The notes under the pieces: generated by a model
Told to the model about the DNA's origin: nothing
The model's database searches: none
What the model saw: the letters and a program-made list of their open reading frames with translations, nothing else
NCBI GenBank assembly: GCA_030630935.1
Contig: DAOVMD010000019.1
Coordinates: 1 to 15,491, forward strand
Length of the DNA: 15,491 bases
Reading direction: 5' to 3'
DNA from: Candidatus Mcinerneyibacteriota bacterium
Lineage (GTDB): Bacteria; AUK180; JAQVHJ01
Part shown: one piece after another, positions 7,015 to 15,491 of the stretch
Layout: each line of letters begins with the position of its first letter
Numbering within the stretch: position 1 is the first letter of the stretch
Program-made: the position numbers and the translations under genes

Positions 7015-7518
7015 TTAGATATATCCTTTTGCAATTTCAATATAATGTTCAGCAGAATATTTCAAGAGTTCTTTTTCTTTTTCAGTAAGTTCTCTTTTAA
7101 CTTTTGCAGGGATTCCTAATACCAGAGTTCCCGGGGGTATTTTTGCACCTTCAGTAACTAATGCACCAGCACCAATGATACTATATTCACCTATTTCAGC
7201 TCCATTCAGGATAACTGCCCCCATTCCTATAAGAGCAAAATCTTCAATTGTACAACCATGTAGAATTGCATTATGTCCAACAGTCACATATTTACCAATT
7301 ATAAGGGGGAAAGTTCCGGTATCCACATGCAAAGAAGAGAGTTCCTGAATATTTGTTCCCTTCCCGATTGTGATATAATTTACATCACCTCTTACGACAG
7401 AATTGAACCAGATTGACGCATCTGCAGCTATTTTTACATCACCGGCAATAATTGCCCCTTCCGCAATAAACGCAGATGGGTGAATGATAGGAGTTTTTCC
7501 TTTATATGATATTAACAT
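7015..7518 (-). CDS. Gamma-class carbonic anhydrase family protein
   Basis: This 167 aa left-handed beta-helix (hexapeptide repeat) protein is of the YrdA/PaaY/CamH type. Proteins of this type form trimers, and some hydrate carbon dioxide to bicarbonate. Three histidines, His64 (SSLHVDTG), His82 (VGHNA) and His87 (ILHGC), are the expected zinc ligands. Arg43, Asp45 and Gln58 also match conserved positions of the class. Repeats such as IIAGDVKIAADASIW and VILNGAEIGEYSIIGAGALV show the helix turns. The acidic loop of archaeal Cam is absent. Activity in this subfamily varies, and some members act in other roles, so the substrate is not certain. It starts 14 bp after the upstream CNB-protein stop, with a GAAGGG Shine-Dalgarno sequence close to the ATG, and probably shares its transcript. 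Confidence 0.9.
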   Translation of the reverse strand: MLISYKGKTPIIHPSAFIAEGAIIAGDVKIAADASIWFNSVVRGDVNYITIGKGTNIQELSSLHVDTGTFPLIIGKYVTVGHNAILHGCTIEDFALIGMGAVILNGAEIGEYSIIGAGALVTEGAKIPPGTLVLGIPAKVKRELTEKEKELLKYSAEHYIEIAKGYI

Positions 7519-7532
7519 TTCCCTTCACTTTT

Positions 7533-7994
7533 TTATTTACCTTGAGAAATAATTTCCTTTAATTTTTTATTTGTATCACGTAGTCTAATAAGTACAGCTT
7601 TCAACATTGTTGAGAGTACTTTATTCGCAAGGAATGGCCGTTCCTGTGTAATCTTATCAAAGTCCTTTTTTCTTAGAATTAAAACTTCGCAATGGTCTAT
7701 GCTTATAACGGAAGCAGAGTGCAGTCGACCATCTAAGAAGCTCATCTCCCCGAAGAAGTTTCCGGTTTCAAGATCAACAATATGTGTTGGTTCCTTTCCC
7801 GGGATATTCAGCATGATTTTAACTTTCCCTGATGAGATAAGAAAAAGACTTCGAGTAATCTGATTTTCCCGTAATATGGTCTCCTTAGGATTAACAGTTT
7901 GAAAGTCAAGGTACTTTGTCAGGAATTCCATCTCATCTTCAGAGAGATTTTTAAAAATTTCAACTACTTTTATTTTATTAATATCATCTATCAT
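7533..7994 (-). CDS. Stand-alone cyclic-nucleotide-binding-domain protein
   Basis: This 153 aa protein is essentially one Crp/Fnr-type cNMP-binding beta-roll (residues about 10-115) plus a C-terminal helical segment (about 118-150). It has no DNA-binding helix-turn-helix, so it is not a typical Crp-like regulator. The phosphate-binding cassette reads FGEMSFLDGRLHSASV (81-96). Gly82 and Glu83 are kept, but the arginine that contacts the cyclic phosphate in PKA and CRP is replaced by His92. Binding of cAMP or cGMP is therefore doubtful. A CAGGAG Shine-Dalgarno sequence precedes the ATG. It lies 15 bp after the PorV-like gene and 14 bp before the carbonic anhydrase gene, so co-transcription is likely. 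Its role is unknown. Confidence 0.87.
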   Translation of the reverse strand: MIDDINKIKVVEIFKNLSEDEMEFLTKYLDFQTVNPKETILRENQITRSLFLISSGKVKIMLNIPGKEPTHIVDLETGNFFGEMSFLDGRLHSASVISIDHCEVLILRKKDFDKITQERPFLANKVLSTMLKAVLIRLRDTNKKLKEIISQGK

Positions 7995-8009: not shown

Positions 8010-8903
8010 TTACCTTGTTATATAATTAAGTGAGAAAGCATATTGCGGTTTAAAACCATCTCTTTCCGATTTATATACAATTGTAACTCCAATATAATTG
8101 TTTCCTGAAATTTTAAAGTTCCCACCTAATCCTGCAGAGAATAGGGCATCATTATAACCTAAGCAAGCCATTAAATCTCCCATTGAGTATTCAACTCCGA
8201 AATGAGCTATACTTTTTTCCTCAGCTCTCTTAGAAAGTTCCAGTGAAGTCCTCCAACTTTTATCAATTTTATAGCTTACTCCAAATTGAGTTAACATAGG
8301 TACTTCTTCCTCATATCCGGAGTCCCAGGAGAATGTTTCAGAAATATCTCTGAAGACTAAACTGGCTTTTAATTTTTCTTCAACTCCATATAGAATTCCG
8401 AAATCGAATCCGAACGAATCAGCTTGATTCTCTCTGAAATTTTGTTGAAGCATCTTTAGATTTAATCCGGCTGCCCATTGTGATGAGAATTTATAACCAA
8501 CTGAAAAAGCAGTAACAGTTGAAGTGATATTAAATGTTCCGGTTGCGAATGCGATTTCATCATGTCCTACAATATCATCGATTACATACTGCATCAGGTA
8601 ACCACCGACTGCTAATCTTTTTGTGACCGGTGATGCATAACTCAGAAACATATAAGATCTATCAAGGTCCATCATTGCATAATAGATTTCTCCAAAACTT
8701 CCATGCAGCTGAACAATTCCCGCAGGATTATAGAATGTTGCGCTGGAGTCATCTGCAATACTTGAAAATGCTCCGCCCATTGCCAAACCACGTCCTCCCG
8801 GGGTATAGGTCAAGTAGTGAGCCGGTTCAATATATTCTGCAAATAACATTGTAGAAGATATTGCTAAAACTGCTAATATTAAATAAAATTTGATTCTTTT
8901 CAT
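8010..8903 (-). CDS. PorV/PorQ-family outer-membrane beta-barrel protein
   Basis: This 297 aa protein begins with a signal peptide (residues about 1-22, KFYLILAVLAISSTMLFA). It is otherwise made of alternating amphipathic strands, as expected for an outer-membrane barrel. The GGRGLAMGGAFSSIADDSSA (37-56) and FYNPAGI (57-63) segments are the hallmark of the PorV/PorQ (UPF0164) family. In Bacteroidota, PorV carries proteins with C-terminal sorting signals through the type IX secretion system. I chose the ATG at 8901-8903. An AAGGAG Shine-Dalgarno sequence lies just ahead of it, and a longer version starting at 9053 would overlap the upstream protease by 140 bp and add a non-signal-like extension. 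The gap to the protease stop is 10 bp. Whether it is a true PorV or a relative is not settled. Confidence 0.85.
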   Translation of the reverse strand: MKRIKFYLILAVLAISSTMLFAEYIEPAHYLTYTPGGRGLAMGGAFSSIADDSSATFYNPAGIVQLHGSFGEIYYAMMDLDRSYMFLSYASPVTKRLAVGGYLMQYVIDDIVGHDEIAFATGTFNITSTVTAFSVGYKFSSQWAAGLNLKMLQQNFRENQADSFGFDFGILYGVEEKLKASLVFRDISETFSWDSGYEEEVPMLTQFGVSYKIDKSWRTSLELSKRAEEKSIAHFGVEYSMGDLMACLGYNDALFSAGLGGNFKISGNNYIGVTIVYKSERDGFKPQYAFSLNYITR

Positions 8904-8909
8904 GATACA

Positions 8910-8915
8910 CTCCTT
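8910..8915 (-). promoter_or_regulatory. Shine-Dalgarno that fixes the porV-like start
   Basis: AAGGAG on the minus strand overlaps the first two bases of the upstream protease stop codon (8914-8916) and lies 6 bp from the ATG at 8901-8903. It supports the short start over the upstream in-frame ATG at 9053 and suggests translational coupling. Confidence 0.8.
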
Positions 8916-10410
8916 ATTCTGCTTTAACAGCTTTAATAACCCTTTCACCATCCGGGCCTTCAAGTTTAATAAAATAAACATTATTTCCATAACCGGTAGC
9001 ATCCCAGATAATAGAATTGTTCTGACCGGCCTTTGCATCAACTGAGAAATCATCTATCTTATTTAAACGATCATCGTAAATTGTTACTTTTACAGATTGG
9101 TTGCTGTTTACCGTGAAGATGATCGTGGTTTTTCTTTTAAATGGATTTGGGAAGTTATATGCATTCGTGAGGTTATAAACTTGATCGGGTTTTGCAGCTA
9201 ATAATGCTCTATAAGCATCTATTCTCCCGTCACCATACATATCGTCCCTTCCGGAATCACCTAAGTCAATTGCAGAGATTTGAAGGATGTAGCGAACTGA
9301 TTCAGGACTGGTTGCTCCTCTTGCAATGACAAGAGCTCCGACTCCTGCAGCATGTGGGCATGACTGTGAAGTCCCGCCCATCCAATAGAACGCGTCAGCA
9401 GGATAGGTAGATAAAATTAGATTCTCAGTTGGGGGTGAGTCCCCGCCCGGAGCGACAATATCCAGATTATCTCCCCAGTTTGAATAATCAGTTTTTATAT
9501 CATGTTTTGTTACTGCACCAACAGAAATTACCTGTTGATATGCAGCCGGGTAAGCAACTGCAGGTTCACCGTCATTTCCTGAAGATGCAAACATAGCGAC
9601 TTTGTTATTATAAGCATGAGCAATTGCATCTTTAATAGGACCTTCAGGTGAAGGGGTATAAGCGACACCATCAATAACCGGCCAGCCTAAGCTCATATTA
9701 ATAACATCGGCTCCCTGGTTAGTAGCCCAGACAATTCCATCTGATAAAGTATAAGAATCTCCGGAACCGGTATGATCAAGAACCTTTACAGGTAGAAGAG
9801 AACAATCATGAGCAACTCCTGAAACCCCGTATCCGTTATTGGTAACTGCTGCAATAATTCCGGCAACATGGGAACCATGTCCTTCATCATCTTCTGCAAT
9901 GAAATCACTATTTACTGAATCATAACCACTGCTATAAATGTTAGCGACCAGGTCAACATTATCAAGATCAATTCCGGTATCCAGTACTGCAATTAAAATG
10001 GAAGAATTACCGGTCTCAAGATTCCAGGCAGTCGGCATATTAATCTGTCTCATCCCGTGTTGATAATTCCAATAAGTATCATTGGGAATTAAATGCTTAT
10101 GACAGATATAATTATATCCTGAATATTTAACATCAGGATGTACCCCAAGTCTTTTAACTTCAAAAGGAACGGCTCGCGTTTCTTCAATCGTGAAAAGATA
10201 ATAATCAATAAACGGACTCTTCTTCTTCAATTTCAAATTATTCTGAGTCATGAACTCTTGAAGAGCCTTAGCTGATTTCTGTGTATGAAATTTAATAATT
10301 ACTTCACCCTTTCGATAATCATAATAAGGCTCAGCCTTTTCTGCGAAACTAAGAAGGTTGAATATAAATAGAGTTACAAGCACCAATAGAAAAATTCTCT
10401 TGTTTCTCAT
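8914..10410 (-). CDS. Secreted subtilisin-like (S8) serine protease with C-terminal sorting-type domain
   Basis: This 498 aa exported protease has a signal peptide (residues about 1-23) and a prodomain-like segment (about 28-105). The S8 catalytic domain spans about 120-405, with Asp144 (VLDTGID), His178 (GHGSHVAG) and Ser348 (GGTSQSCPHAAG). Asn279 (SSGND) forms the oxyanion hole. The active-site loop reads GTSQS in place of the commoner GTSMA, but the triad is intact. Residues about 414-498 form a small beta-rich domain starting YNFPNPF, with VKVTIYD and VYFIKLEG strands. This matches the type IX (Por) C-terminal sorting domain / FlgD-like fold. It is the first gene of a tight run, with the PorV-like gene 10 bp downstream, which fits cargo and shuttle being made together. 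A GGAG Shine-Dalgarno sequence and a consensus promoter lie upstream. Its target is unknown. Confidence 0.93.
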   Translation of the reverse strand: MRNKRIFLLVLVTLFIFNLLSFAEKAEPYYDYRKGEVIIKFHTQKSAKALQEFMTQNNLKLKKKSPFIDYYLFTIEETRAVPFEVKRLGVHPDVKYSGYNYICHKHLIPNDTYWNYQHGMRQINMPTAWNLETGNSSILIAVLDTGIDLDNVDLVANIYSSGYDSVNSDFIAEDDEGHGSHVAGIIAAVTNNGYGVSGVAHDCSLLPVKVLDHTGSGDSYTLSDGIVWATNQGADVINMSLGWPVIDGVAYTPSPEGPIKDAIAHAYNNKVAMFASSGNDGEPAVAYPAAYQQVISVGAVTKHDIKTDYSNWGDNLDIVAPGGDSPPTENLILSTYPADAFYWMGGTSQSCPHAAGVGALVIARGATSPESVRYILQISAIDLGDSGRDDMYGDGRIDAYRALLAAKPDQVYNLTNAYNFPNPFKRKTTIIFTVNSNQSVKVTIYDDRLNKIDDFSVDAKAGQNNSIIWDATGYGNNVYFIKLEGPDGERVIKAVKAE

Positions 10411-10449: not shown

Positions 10450-10478
10450 ATTATATAAGATTATTCAGCAATTGTCAA
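10450..10478 (-). promoter_or_regulatory. Consensus promoter of the protease-porV-CNB-carbonic anhydrase operon
   Basis: On the minus strand a perfect TTGACA (10473-10478) and a perfect TATAAT (10450-10455) are separated by exactly 17 bp, the ideal sigma70-type arrangement. Transcription would start near 10443, giving a leader of about 33 nt. This suggests strong expression unless a repressor acts. Confidence 0.8.
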
Positions 10479-10673: not shown

Positions 10674-13600
10674 ATGATCCCCAAAAACCAAATATTTATT
10701 TTAATATTATTAATTTTGTTTATTTTTTCAGGTTCTATTTTTGGTGGCGAGATTTCGTCAGAACTTGATAGTTATATAAATTTGAAATCACGATCTGATG
10801 AACTGATCCCAATTGTCATTCATATGAAGGAGAAGCTTGATGTAAAGTCAATGTCAACCGATTTACGGAATCAGAGCGCAAGCAAGCAATTTATCCATAA
10901 ACAAATTATTACTTCACTTCAATCCATTGCGAAGAATTCACAGCATGAGATTATATCAATAATTGAGAAGGAGATTCAAATTGGTAATGCAAAAGACCTG
11001 ACAACTTTTTGGGTATTCAATGGTATGACCCTTGAAGCAACTCCTTCCCTGATAAAGCAGCTTGCTTCACTTGAATCTGTCGAGTTAGTCCGAGAGCAGT
11101 TAGAGATTCATCTTATAAACGATAAATTTTATTCAATTCCCCCTGCAAAGACCCGAGCCGAAGTAAAGGATTTTGGAGTTAAGCAGATTAAAGCTGATCA
11201 GATGTGGGCACTTGGTTACAGGGGTGATGGAATAATTGTAGCAAATTTTGATACGGGAGTAAATTTAAATCATAAGGATTTAAGCGGGAAATGGTTAGGT
11301 AATACGAAACCGGCCTCAGAATGCTGGTTTGATCCATGGTCAAATACTTCACAACCAGTTGATGGCGGGACAAACACCTGGCAGCATGGAACTCATACAA
11401 TGGCAACTATAATCGGTGATGATGTTTCCGGAGGAGTTCATTATGGAGTTGCACCAAATGCAAAATGGATAGCTGCCCGTATGTTCAGTTATGACGGGAA
11501 TGCAAGTGAAACCAACACTATAAAATGTTTTCAATGGCTCGCAGATCCTGATGGTAATCCTGCAACAAATACTGATGTTCCGCACATTTGTAATAATTCC
11601 TGGGGTGCCACGAATCCTTATACAGGTGCAGGCGTCTGTAACAGCGGATATTATACTTATATCGATAACTGTGAAAACCTTGGAATCGTTTTATTATTTT
11701 CAGCTGGAAATAATGGTGAGTACGGTTCAAAAACAATTGGATCACCTGCATCCAGAATAACAACTTACCTAAATGCTTTTTCGATAGGCGCGACCGATTC
11801 TTCAAGGAATATCGGGAGTTTCTCATCACGTGGTCCATCAACCTGTGATGGTTCCACAATTAAACCGGAAGTTTCAGCACCTGGTGTTCAAGTTTGGTCA
11901 GCAGACGGGTCATCCACTAACGGTTATAAATATGGTGACGGGACTTCAATGGCTTGTCCGCACGCGGCCGGTGCAGCGGCATTATTACTTCAATATAAAC
12001 CAGATGCCACAGTTATAGAGATTAAAAAGGCATTATATTATACAGCGACCTATGGGTATAATCAGCATGGTGAGGATAATAATTTTGGACGCGGAATCAT
12101 TGATGTTATGGCTGCCAAAGATTATCTGCAACCGGTTGCTGATCCAAATATTGATTATGTCTCAAAATATATCGATGACTCGTCAGGGAATAGTAATAAT
12201 TATGCTGATCCCGGGGAGTCCATAAAAATTCAAGTTACACTGAAAAATACCGGTTCTAATGCAGCAAGTATTTCCGGTGTATTATCATCAACCGATCCTT
12301 ATGTTACAATTTCTGATAGTAGTTCAACATTTCAGGATATTTCCACTAATTCAACAGGGACAACAAATTTCCCACATTTCTCAGTTTCGATAGATGGTGG
12401 TTGTCCATTAGGTCATGTAATTCAATTTACATTAAACATCACCTCGAATGGCGGGAGTTATAATACTTCAAAATCTTTCTTCATTCAAGTTGGTACACCA
12501 ACTGCCAACACACATAATTCAACAGATACCCCAATTGCAATTCCCGATAATAACACAACTGGGATTACAAGTAATTTGGATTTAAGTAATGTTGGAACAA
12601 TTGCAGATATAAATATTTATTTAAATATTACACATACATATATAGGAGATTTAAAGATAACCTTAATCTCTCCGGAAGGAACCCCGATTGTTCTCCATAA
12701 TAAATCAGGTGGTGGAACAGATAATATTGTTGGATGGTATGACACTGATAAACCGGAAGATGGTCCCGGAAAATTAGATGATTTAGTTGGAGAGAATGGT
12801 TCCGGTAACTGGCGTATAGCAATTACAGATACAGCAGGTCAGGATACCGGTCAATTGAATTCATGGAAATTAGAGATTACATCTTATGGTCAGCCAACCG
12901 ATTCAATTCCGCCTTCCGATATCTCAAATCTTTCAGCAGTCTCGGGAACAGTGGAAGGAACAGTAAAGTTAACCTGGACTTCTCCGGGTGATGACGGCAA
13001 CTCAGGTCAGGCAGCAAAATATATTTTAAAATATAATACAGTATTAATAACTTCCGGAAACTGGAACAGCTCCAGTGAGGTAACCGGATTACCTACACCA
13101 AAAACTGCCGGTGGTTCAGAATCAATTACTTTATCCGGGTTGACACCGGGGCAACTTTATTATTTTGCACTTAAAACAGAGGATGAGATTCCGAATACCT
13201 CGGGCTTGTCAAATGTTCCTTCTGCAGCAGCCAAGCAGGCTGCGCCAATTCTTTTAGTAGATGATGATAATGGCGGAACAGTTGAAACATATTATACGTC
13301 GTCATTAGATGCAGGAGCTTATGTTTATGATACCTGGAGTGTGAAAGATTCCGGCAGCCCTGATTCATCAAAACTGCAATCTTATCAGTATGTAATCTGG
13401 TTCACGGGAGGTGATTATCAGACTACCTTAACAACCACAGATGAGAATAATTTAAAATTGTATTTAAATAATGGCGGTCGTTTATTCCTTGTTAGTGATG
13501 ATTACCTTTATCAGATTACCGGTGGTACAGATGGGAATTTAACCCAGGACTTTCCAAAGAATTATTTGAAGATTGATTCATGCGATAATGATGTCGGGGA

Positions 13601-15491
13601 TAGTTATGAAACGACTGCAAATGGTGTTGGTGGTGACCCTATTAGTAACGGTTTGAATTTAACTATTAACGCAAGTTCACCGATTACAAATTATGCCGAT
13701 GCAATTTTCAGTTCAACTGCTGATGTAATATTTAATAATAGCAAACCCGAACCTTGCGGTTTACGATATGATAACGGAACATATCGTGTTGTCACACTTG
13801 TATTTCCATTTGAAAATATCTCAAGTTCCACAAACCGAAATACTCTGATGAATAAAGTATTAACCTGGCTTCAGAATGGTGGAGGTGCATCAGATACAAC
13901 TGCTCCGGCAGCCGTTTCCAATCTTAATGCTGTACAGGGAACCACATCAGGTGAGATTGTTCTAACATGGACAGCACCTGGTGACGATGGTAATTCAGGT
14001 CAGGCAGCAGAATATATAATTAAATATAATACAACTGCAATTTCTGAGTCAAACTGGAATTCTTCAAGTGATATTTCAGGGGAACCTACTCCAAAGACTG
14101 CAGGGTCAGGAGAGACACTTACGATTTCAGGATTTACTCCGAATGAAAGTTATTACTTTGCAATTAAAACGAAAGATGAGGTTCCTAATATTTCAGCGGT
14201 TTCAAACTCTCCTTCTGTAACAGCGCCCGGTTCTCAAAATTCCGGTGAGTATCATAGTGCAGATACTCCAAAATCCATTCCGGATAATAATACAACCGGT
14301 GTTGAGACCTATATTCCCGTAATTGAAAGTTACACAATTTCTGAAATTGAAATATATCTAAATATCAAGCATACATATCGCGGCGATCTTAGGGTAACAT
14401 TGAAGTCTCCAGCCGGTACAGTAGTAACCTTACATAATCGTGGTGGCGGCTCAGCGGATAACCTTGTCGGGTGGTATGCGACTGAGGTAACCCCATCAGG
14501 ACCAGGCTCTCTTAATGACTTTATTGGTGAGAATTGTAATGGGAACTGGTACCTGAATGTTGATGATAATTATTCACAGGATACCGGAACAATTGATGAA
14601 TGGGTAATTAAAATGAAATACAATACAGGTGTTGTTAGTGATGGTACTCCGCCAGCTGATATTACAAACTTGACAGCGTATAAAAATTCGGATAGTTCAG
14701 TTACCTTAAAATGGACTTCTCCGGGTGACGATGGTAATACCGGTACAGCAGATCATTATGTCATAAAACATAATACTGTTAATATAACTGATTCAAACTG
14801 GACATCTTCATCTTCTCTTTCGGGATTACCCGCTCCTTCAGCTCCGGGGTCACAAGAGCAGTTGATAGTAAATAGCTTGTTAACCGGAACAACATATTAT
14901 TTTGCAATCAAGACTTATGATGAAGAGGATAATTATTCAGGATTATCGAATGTCGCGTCGTATTATTTATCTCCACCTGCTCCGGAAATTACAATTCTTT
15001 TAGTCGAAGACGCAAATTCGAGTTCAGTTAATACCATATATACTAATGCATTAGATGCAAAAGGTTATACGTATGATACCTGGGATACTTCCGGTTCGGG
15101 GTCACCATCCGCAGCAACCTTGAAAAATTATTCAGTAGTAATCTGGTTTACAGGTGCTGACTCTACGACAACTTTAAGCCCTGCTGATGAAACAAACTTG
15201 AAATCATATTTAAACGCTCATGGTCATTTATTCTTTATCAGTCAGGATTATTTCTATGATTTAATGGGTGACCCAGCTGGTTCTGTTTCTATCTCTAATG
15301 ATTTCATTAATAATTACTTACATATTTCACATGTAGATAATGATGTCGATTCTCCAAGAAAAGATATGCAGTATGGCCTAAACAATGACCCGATCTCTGA
15401 TAGTGTAGTTGTTAGTATTGGAGGAACTCCCATTACAAATTATTCTGATTCATTTACGAAAACAGACGGGGTGGATTCCTTTGCTGTAACC
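10674..15491 (+). CDS. Large modular bacillopeptidase F-like S8 protease, 3' end cut by window
   Basis: The frame is open from an ATG with an AAGGAGG Shine-Dalgarno sequence (10662-10668) to the window end: 1606 codons and no stop. The start gives a signal peptide (about 1-24). Next come an inhibitor-I9-like prodomain (about 42-160) and an S8 catalytic domain (about 170-485). The catalytic residues are Asp193 (NFDTGV), His238 (QHGTHTM) and Ser425 (GTSMACPHAAG), with oxyanion Asn346 (SAGNNG). Then follow a CARDB-like beta domain (about 488-612), P domain 1 (614-739), FN3-1 (745-857) and an amidotransferase-like ILLVDDD domain (859-1068). The series continues with FN3-2 (1075-1182), P domain 2 (1194-1316), FN3-3 (1325-1438) and a second ILLVED domain (1439 onward). 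The catalytic part resembles bacillopeptidase F. It is predicted to be secreted or surface-bound. Any C-terminal sorting signal would lie beyond the window. Confidence 0.93.
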   Translation, partial: MIPKNQIFILILLILFIFSGSIFGGEISSELDSYINLKSRSDELIPIVIHMKEKLDVKSMSTDLRNQSASKQFIHKQIITSLQSIAKNSQHEIISIIEKEIQIGNAKDLTTFWVFNGMTLEATPSLIKQLASLESVELVREQLEIHLINDKFYSIPPAKTRAEVKDFGVKQIKADQMWALGYRGDGIIVANFDTGVNLNHKDLSGKWLGNTKPASECWFDPWSNTSQPVDGGTNTWQHGTHTMATIIGDDVSGGVHYGVAPNAKWIAARMFSYDGNASETNTIKCFQWLADPDGNPATNTDVPHICNNSWGATNPYTGAGVCNSGYYTYIDNCENLGIVLLFSAGNNGEYGSKTIGSPASRITTYLNAFSIGATDSSRNIGSFSSRGPSTCDGSTIKPEVSAPGVQVWSADGSSTNGYKYGDGTSMACPHAAGAAALLLQYKPDATVIEIKKALYYTATYGYNQHGEDNNFGRGIIDVMAAKDYLQPVADPNIDYVSKYIDDSSGNSNNYADPGESIKIQVTLKNTGSNAASISGVLSSTDPYVTISDSSSTFQDISTNSTGTTNFPHFSVSIDGGCPLGHVIQFTLNITSNGGSYNTSKSFFIQVGTPTANTHNSTDTPIAIPDNNTTGITSNLDLSNVGTIADINIYLNITHTYIGDLKITLISPEGTPIVLHNKSGGGTDNIVGWYDTDKPEDGPGKLDDLVGENGSGNWRIAITDTAGQDTGQLNSWKLEITSYGQPTDSIPPSDISNLSAVSGTVEGTVKLTWTSPGDDGNSGQAAKYILKYNTVLITSGNWNSSSEVTGLPTPKTAGGSESITLSGLTPGQLYYFALKTEDEIPNTSGLSNVPSAAAKQAAPILLVDDDNGGTVETYYTSSLDAGAYVYDTWSVKDSGSPDSSKLQSYQYVIWFTGGDYQTTLTTTDENNLKLYLNNGGRLFLVSDDYLYQITGGTDGNLTQDFPKNYLKIDSCDNDVGDSYETTANGVGGDPISNGLNLTINASSPITNYADAIFSSTADVIFNNSKPEPCGLRYDNGTYRVVTLVFPFENISSSTNRNTLMNKVLTWLQNGGGASDTTAPAAVSNLNAVQGTTSGEIVLTWTAPGDDGNSGQAAEYIIKYNTTAISESNWNSSSDISGEPTPKTAGSGETLTISGFTPNESYYFAIKTKDEVPNISAVSNSPSVTAPGSQNSGEYHSADTPKSIPDNNTTGVETYIPVIESYTISEIEIYLNIKHTYRGDLRVTLKSPAGTVVTLHNRGGGSADNLVGWYATEVTPSGPGSLNDFIGENCNGNWYLNVDDNYSQDTGTIDEWVIKMKYNTGVVSDGTPPADITNLTAYKNSDSSVTLKWTSPGDDGNTGTADHYVIKHNTVNITDSNWTSSSSLSGLPAPSAPGSQEQLIVNSLLTGTTYYFAIKTYDEEDNYSGLSNVASYYLSPPAPEITILLVEDANSSSVNTIYTNALDAKGYTYDTWDTSGSGSPSAATLKNYSVVIWFTGADSTTTLSPADETNLKSYLNAHGHLFFISQDYFYDLMGDPAGSVSISNDFINNYLHISHVDNDVDSPRKDMQYGLNNDPISDSVVVSIGGTPITNYSDSFTKTDGVDSFAVT
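12513..12890 (+). repeat. P (proprotein convertase) domain, copy 1, inside the large protease
   Basis: Residues 614-739 read as a P/Homo B domain: IPDNNTTGI, IYLNITHTYIGDLKITLISP, LHN...GGG, NIVGWYDT, LVGENGSGNW and SWKLEI. P domains are jelly-roll modules that usually follow S8 proteases and stabilise or anchor them. The same module recurs at 14253-14622. Confidence 0.85.
14253..14622 (+). repeat. P domain, copy 2, inside the large protease
   Basis: Residues 1194-1316 repeat the P-domain motifs in the same order: IPDNNTTGV, IYLNIKHTYRGDLRVTLKSP, LHNRGGG, NLVGWYAT, FIGENCNGNW and EWVIKM. At the DNA level the two copies have diverged by many silent changes, so the duplication is not recent. 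This copy is far from the catalytic domain, which is unusual for a P domain. Confidence 0.85.

Follow-up and report, generated by a model that had tools for sequence, protein, structure and literature searches.

A subtilisin-family protease and a PorV/PorQ-family barrel as a probable cognate pair of a type IX secretion system in Candidatus Mcinerneyibacteriota

Cargo-barrel partnerships described in other systems

In the known type IX secretion systems (T9SS), tails of type A are all handled by one PorV, despite their low identity, and cargos of type B have a PorP/SprF barrel of their own, encoded directly after them (PMC12618676). In Flavobacterium, cargos of type B depend on this adjoining barrel, and it determines their final location too (PMC12618676, PMC9143113). 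PorU remains bound to PorV, and PorZ to PorQ, both with their tails kept; it has been suggested in a review that cognate barrels may protect the tail from cleavage, and a cognate barrel is suspected for PorZ/PorQ (PMC10202324). Our search of open-access papers for T9SS in other phyla returned nothing useful, and type A cognate barrels described in subscription journals could be missed by it.

The locus described here resembles the type B/PorP-SprF pairs (SprB-SprF, Fjoh_3952-Fjoh_3951; PMC12618676, PMC9143113) in that a cargo gene is followed by the gene of its own 14-strand FadL-type barrel, and also in that there are several such pairs per genome, together with orphan cargos. The PorP/SprF barrel is required for secretion and anchors its cargo; the two proteins of our locus may bind each other. 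Unlike in the type B pairs, the cargo has a type A-like tail (TIGR04183), and its barrel is a member of the PorV/PorQ family, not of PorP/SprF. With the PorV shuttle of Bacteroidota, which receives type A tails (SprA-PorV, 6h3i, 8gl6), the barrel shares the family and the fold; however, it is shorter than the deposited PorV (297 vs 402 residues) and far under the cut-off of the PorV equivalog, and where Bacteroidota have one PorV gene for all type A cargos (PMC12618676), the genome studied here has 14 family matches, many of them beside one cargo. The locus is also similar to PorU-PorV and PorZ-PorQ (PMC10202324), where a protein with a C-terminal sorting domain, which in the case of PorU is a protease, is held uncleaved by a PorV/PorQ-family barrel. 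Yet the protease is of the S8 type rather than C25, and by the curated cut-offs the proteins of the locus are not equivalogs of PorU, PorZ or PorQ.

We propose, with a probability of about 0.6, that the protease and the barrel are a cognate cargo-barrel pair of the T9SS, i.e. the type A/PorV counterpart of the type B/PorP-SprF pairs. The proposal draws on the coupling of the two genes, their domain content, the PorV-type model of the barrel, the presence of SprA, the synteny of the pair, the recurrence of such pairs, the divergence of paired tails and the co-variation of tails and barrels. Cognate barrels are known for type B cargos; here the same logic would extend to the PorV family and to tails that are type A-like.

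The protease-barrel locus and its conservation

The window, i.e. the whole stretch of 15,491 nucleotides that was analysed, is an entire contig of a 3.16-Mb assembly that is 80% complete. Its minus strand carries, in this order, the genes of the S8 protease, the PorV/PorQ-family barrel, a protein with a cyclic-nucleotide-binding (cNMP) domain and a hexapeptide-repeat protein (Table 1). Between the stop of the protease and the start of the barrel there is a spacer of 10 nt (8913-8904), and the Shine-Dalgarno sequence of the second gene (8915-8910) overlaps the stop codon of the first (8916-8914); both facts had been pointed out in the earlier note, and the coordinates of the two genes (8914 and 8903) bear them out. 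We took 8903 as the start of the barrel because a normal-looking signal peptide and a Shine-Dalgarno sequence are found there; the ORF lister had placed it at 9053, within the protease. The perfect TTGACA-17-TATAAT upstream of the protease is by itself no proof of function, and promoter-like sites overall are no more frequent than in shuffled sequence. Positions 10674-15491 of the plus strand encode a large S8 protease that is transcribed divergently and contains P-domains as well as fn3 domains; it is cut by the contig end, and its C-terminus lies outside the contig.

Table 1. Coordinates of the features discussed, numbered along the window
Feature	Positions	Strand	Evidence
Presumably secreted S8 (subtilisin-family) protease: putative signal peptide, prodomain, catalytic domain, sorting domain; 498 aa, stop TAA at 8916-8914	8914..10410	-	Domain profiles
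N-terminal prodomain, Fervidolysin_NPro-like	10123..10335	-	PF22148, 26.6 bits (cut-off 21)
S8 catalytic domain (residues 137-395)	9226..10002	-	PF00082, E 4.5e-51
Type A-like T9SS C-terminal sorting domain (YNFPNPF...NNVYFIKLEGPDGERVIKAVKAE)	8917..9165	-	TIGR04183, isolated tail
Shine-Dalgarno AAGGAG of the barrel gene	8910..8915	-	Direct reading; overlaps the protease stop codon
Sigma-70-type promoter-like site, TTGACA-17-TATAAT	10450..10478	-	Consensus 12/12; 40 bp 5' of the protease start
PorV/PorQ-family outer-membrane barrel, probable partner of the protease; 297 aa, ATG at 8903-8901	8010..8903	-	NF033709, AF2 model, PorV profile match
cNMP-binding-domain protein, next in the block	7533..7994	-	PF00027, 63.9 bits; synteny in relatives
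Hexapeptide-repeat (gamma-carbonic-anhydrase-like) protein, closes the conserved block	7015..7518	-	PF00132, 68.7 bits; synteny

The protease begins with a putative Sec signal peptide, read from the sequence as MRNKRIFLLVLVTLFIFNLLSFAEKAEP. Its catalytic triad (D144/H178/S348) is complete and invariant in the alignment of orthologues, and the protein is predicted to be an active protease. The earlier note had likened its tail to T9SS cargo, and TIGR04183 supports the likeness, albeit at the borderline: the isolated last 95 residues score 26.5 bits against a cut-off of 23 and pass, the full-length protein scores 22.5 and falls just under, and PF18962 (cut-off 27) stays below its threshold both for the full-length protein (20.9) and for the isolated tail (25.2). 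We regard the tail as a borderline, type A-like sorting domain. The AF2 model of the protease, made from six sequences, has a poor overall score (51.7) and was used for the strand count of the tail only; residues 418-495 form seven strands in it, with local pLDDT mostly of 60-90. A point against the cognate-pair reading is that the tail family is similar to FlgD Ig domains too. Neither the type B tail model TIGR04131 nor the PorP/SprF model TIGR03519 is listed for the window proteins.

The barrel passes the family model NF033709 marginally (90.4 against a cut-off of 90, and 87.2 in the genome scan), in keeping with its earlier designation as PorV/PorQ-like, and scores well below the equivalog models of PorV (NF033710, 17.6 vs 250) and PorQ (NF033711, 67.2 vs 220).

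The four-gene block is syntenic in five relatives from another family of the same class, so the pair is indeed kept as neighbours in related genomes, a point on which the earlier note had made its reading depend; in each of the five, the protease and barrel genes overlap by 4 bp. In the nearest genome, which is of the same family, the barrel is 75% identical and its neighbour is unseen, because the contig ends there. In the other family, the syntenic barrels share no more than ~20% identity with the window barrel and have low NF033709 scores, one of them (L117) having no match, and a scan of the genome contigs for close relatives with the window barrel alone as the query found none. In a quick tree the syntenic barrels lie near the window barrel (SH-aLRT 84), and a single clade comprising all of them is not rejected (AU p 0.496); the window barrel is no more than a candidate orthologue of the syntenic ones.

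Pairing of PorV-family genes and possible tail-barrel specificity

Association with a cargo is not a peculiarity of this locus. When the last 95 residues of each neighbour's protein were scored with TIGR04183, the domain was found, across seven genomes, in 57 of the 66 genes that lie upstream of a PorV-family gene on the same strand, compared to 5/42 downstream controls (Fisher 4e-15; orthologues are counted in several genomes, and because these rows share ancestry and are not independent the P values of pairing are too small, the contrast being still large). The median gap from the cargo to the PorV-family gene is 9 nt. In the genome of the window, 8/14 barrels directly follow a sorting-domain gene and several others lie at contig ends, the assemblies in the comparison being fragmented. 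A sorting domain was also found in 48/65 upstream neighbours at loci mostly from other, mainly candidate, phyla (Elusimicrobia, Zixibacteria, Latescibacteria, Gemmatimonadetes, WOR-3, Aerophobetes, Ignavibacteria, KSB1 and others), where the pairing was not selected for, since these loci were found by the barrel profile and not by the cargo. The genes porU and porV lie side by side in P. gingivalis, which is not part of the evidence counted here. PorV-family genes usually occur paired with a cargo, in the lineage of the window and in several other phyla, and the paired partners with recognised domains in the genome of the window are mostly not proteases. The genomic evidence thus upholds one part of the earlier interpretation, that of a dedicated cargo-barrel pair, and contradicts the other, according to which the pairing would be unusual or peculiar to a protease.

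Two lines of evidence, one from the tails and one from their co-variation with the barrels, reach further than adjacency. In the two genomes compared, the unpaired cargos (18-22 per genome) have a common tail, from which most paired tails diverge: the median normalised local alignment score is 0.23 between orphans vs 0.11 between orphans and paired cargos in the genome of the window, and 0.17 vs 0.12 in G003 (permutation p 0.0002, the floor, in both), a contrast that would be exaggerated if the profile misses divergent unpaired tails. Similarity to the common tail is lowest for the tail of the window protease (0.08) and for its orthologue in G003 (0.07); in one pair (C223) the tail resembles the common one. 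Similarities of tails and of barrels co-vary among the pairs of a genome (r 0.43, null sd 0.08), significantly so in three of the seven genomes taken alone, but not in the genome of the window (p 0.10) or in G001 (p 0.55). Between the two families, the best match of a barrel is the partner of the best match of its tail in 27/64 cases, compared to 8.1 by permutation. The window pair itself fails this best-match test: the tail finds its syntenic orthologues in 3/4 genomes, the barrel does not. About 20 cargos without an adjoining barrel in the genome of the window (e.g. L251, L252, L254, L255, L257) have a near-uniform tail ending in GK-AIIK, which is likely to be a common address. When the profile of paired tails was compared with solved structures, the best match was the C-terminal domain of PorU, with that of PorZ also high; we dropped a special likeness to PorU/PorZ as a distinguishing mark of paired tails, as one tail of the control set matches the PorZ model with 66 bits.

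If the two proteins of the window are a cognate pair, the protease would reach the periplasm via Sec, fold there and be carried through SprA by its C-terminal sorting domain, and its divergent tail would be taken up by a PorV-like barrel of its own, produced alongside it from the coupled gene, rather than by the shuttle common to most cargos. The protease would then most likely stay docked on the barrel at the cell surface, in the way that PorU stays on PorV, PorZ on PorQ and a type B cargo on its PorP/SprF barrel, since a partner supplied in stoichiometric amounts is of use only when it is not recycled; the barrel would collect the protease and probably keep it at the surface.

Another explanation, which we find unlikely but which fares best among the alternatives, takes the barrel for one of a set of interchangeable PorV-like shuttles; the pairs would have spread by duplication of the unit, and the adjacency would couple expression only, any barrel serving any cargo. 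One PorV does handle type A tails of low identity in known species (PMC12618676). Most sorting-domain cargos of this genome have no adjoining barrel, so some barrel must serve many, and duplication of whole pairs alone could produce the co-variation of tails and barrels without any specificity of binding. However, in two genomes the tails of paired cargos depart from the common one, the pairings have been kept across two families, and within a genome most barrels share less than about 35% identity with one another, which would be unexpected for interchangeable copies.

The reading of the two proteins as a cognate pair suggests that the T9SS in this lineage uses dedicated barrels for some cargos, instead of one shared shuttle. 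A broader scheme, to which we give somewhat less than even odds, would have private PorV-family barrels outside Bacteroidota, each docking one type A-like cargo at the surface through a tail that is left uncleaved; versions with OmpA or SPOR fusions would tie the cargo to the cell wall, and a shared barrel would serve the many cargos that have the common tail. If true, then with many pairs per genome and several phyla involved, tail-barrel specificity would be a general addressing code, and the paired tails that lie far from the common tail would be ready test pairs for establishing which part of the tail sets the final location.

Secretion machinery, barrel fold and barrel variants

The earlier note would have abandoned its reading in a genome without other T9SS genes. 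SprA was found in the genome of the window and in the six relatives searched (7/7 genomes), compared to 0/14 control genomes; in the genome of the window it is split over two contigs (C221/C73) and below the cut-off of 200 bits, and in three relatives it is intact and above it. The same genome has two C25 peptidases, one of them distantly PorU-like (54 bits vs the PorU cut-off of 420), and, besides the 14 PorV-family matches that also answer the question of further paralogues, about 40 sorting-domain matches. The motor subunit GldM (PorM; TIGR03517) had no match in the seven genomes, where a divergent form could escape and the assembly of the window is 80% complete, so the machine may differ from that of Bacteroidota. 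SprA of the relatives (G000-G006) is shorter, with ~1,770-1,790 aa against 2,319 positions of the model, and these genomes, in which GldM has no match, possibly have a different energising unit.

It could be argued that the S8 protease is not an end-point cargo but a surface maturase, held by the barrel as in a PorU-PorV-like processing module and trimming or shedding other cargos. In PorU-PorV, too, a barrel of the PorV family retains a protease (PMC10202324), the class has conserved the block of four genes, and the C25 peptidase of this genome is so distant from PorU that it leaves room for another processor. Nonetheless, a PorU-like C25 peptidase does exist in the genome, and the other paired cargos scanned there are without a protease domain, so pairing is no mark of processing; we regard this role as improbable.

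In the AF2 model (pLDDT 91.5), the window barrel has 14 strands, with short helices ahead of strand 1. Structural re-alignment of the model gives Z-scores of 32.7 and 32.3 for PorV (8gl6_F and 6h3i_F) and a tied 32.0 for FadL, and in the Foldseek top 50 FadL comes first, with PorV not among the matches listed. Because structure alone ties PorV with FadL, the kinship with PorV rests on the sequence profile of the barrel family, which matches the solved PorV with E 6e-37 vs 6e-6 for FadL/TodX. A role of the barrel as a FadL-type channel for small hydrophobic molecules, with an incidental pairing to the protease, is very improbable: FadL structures are within 1 Z unit of PorV and there is a weak match to Pfam Toluene_X, but the sequence profile strongly favours PorV, the NF033709 cut-off is passed, and the pairing with sorting-domain cargos is systematic.

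Several PorV-family paralogues carry further domains. Barrels fused to OmpA are found beside a sorting-domain cargo in L049:2504-4408 (C188 of the genome of the window; also with SPOR) and in L069:4712-6133 (G001 C128); these peptidoglycan-binding fusions fit anchoring and parallel the PorP-PorE link to peptidoglycan. In the genome of the window there are also a 499-aa barrel with ComEA-like helix-hairpin-helix (HhH) repeats (L054:630-2129, C41) and a 985-aa barrel with TPR repeats (L057:6376-9333, C212). In one PorV-family clade (L228:2481-3389, L219:3171-4076, L208:2168-3073), the barrel follows a gene of ~870 residues whose end reads as a TonB-type receptor barrel rather than a sorting domain. 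The cargo L057:3611-6379 (C212) has one sorting-like/FlgD-Ig domain at its C-terminus and a second one near its N-terminus.
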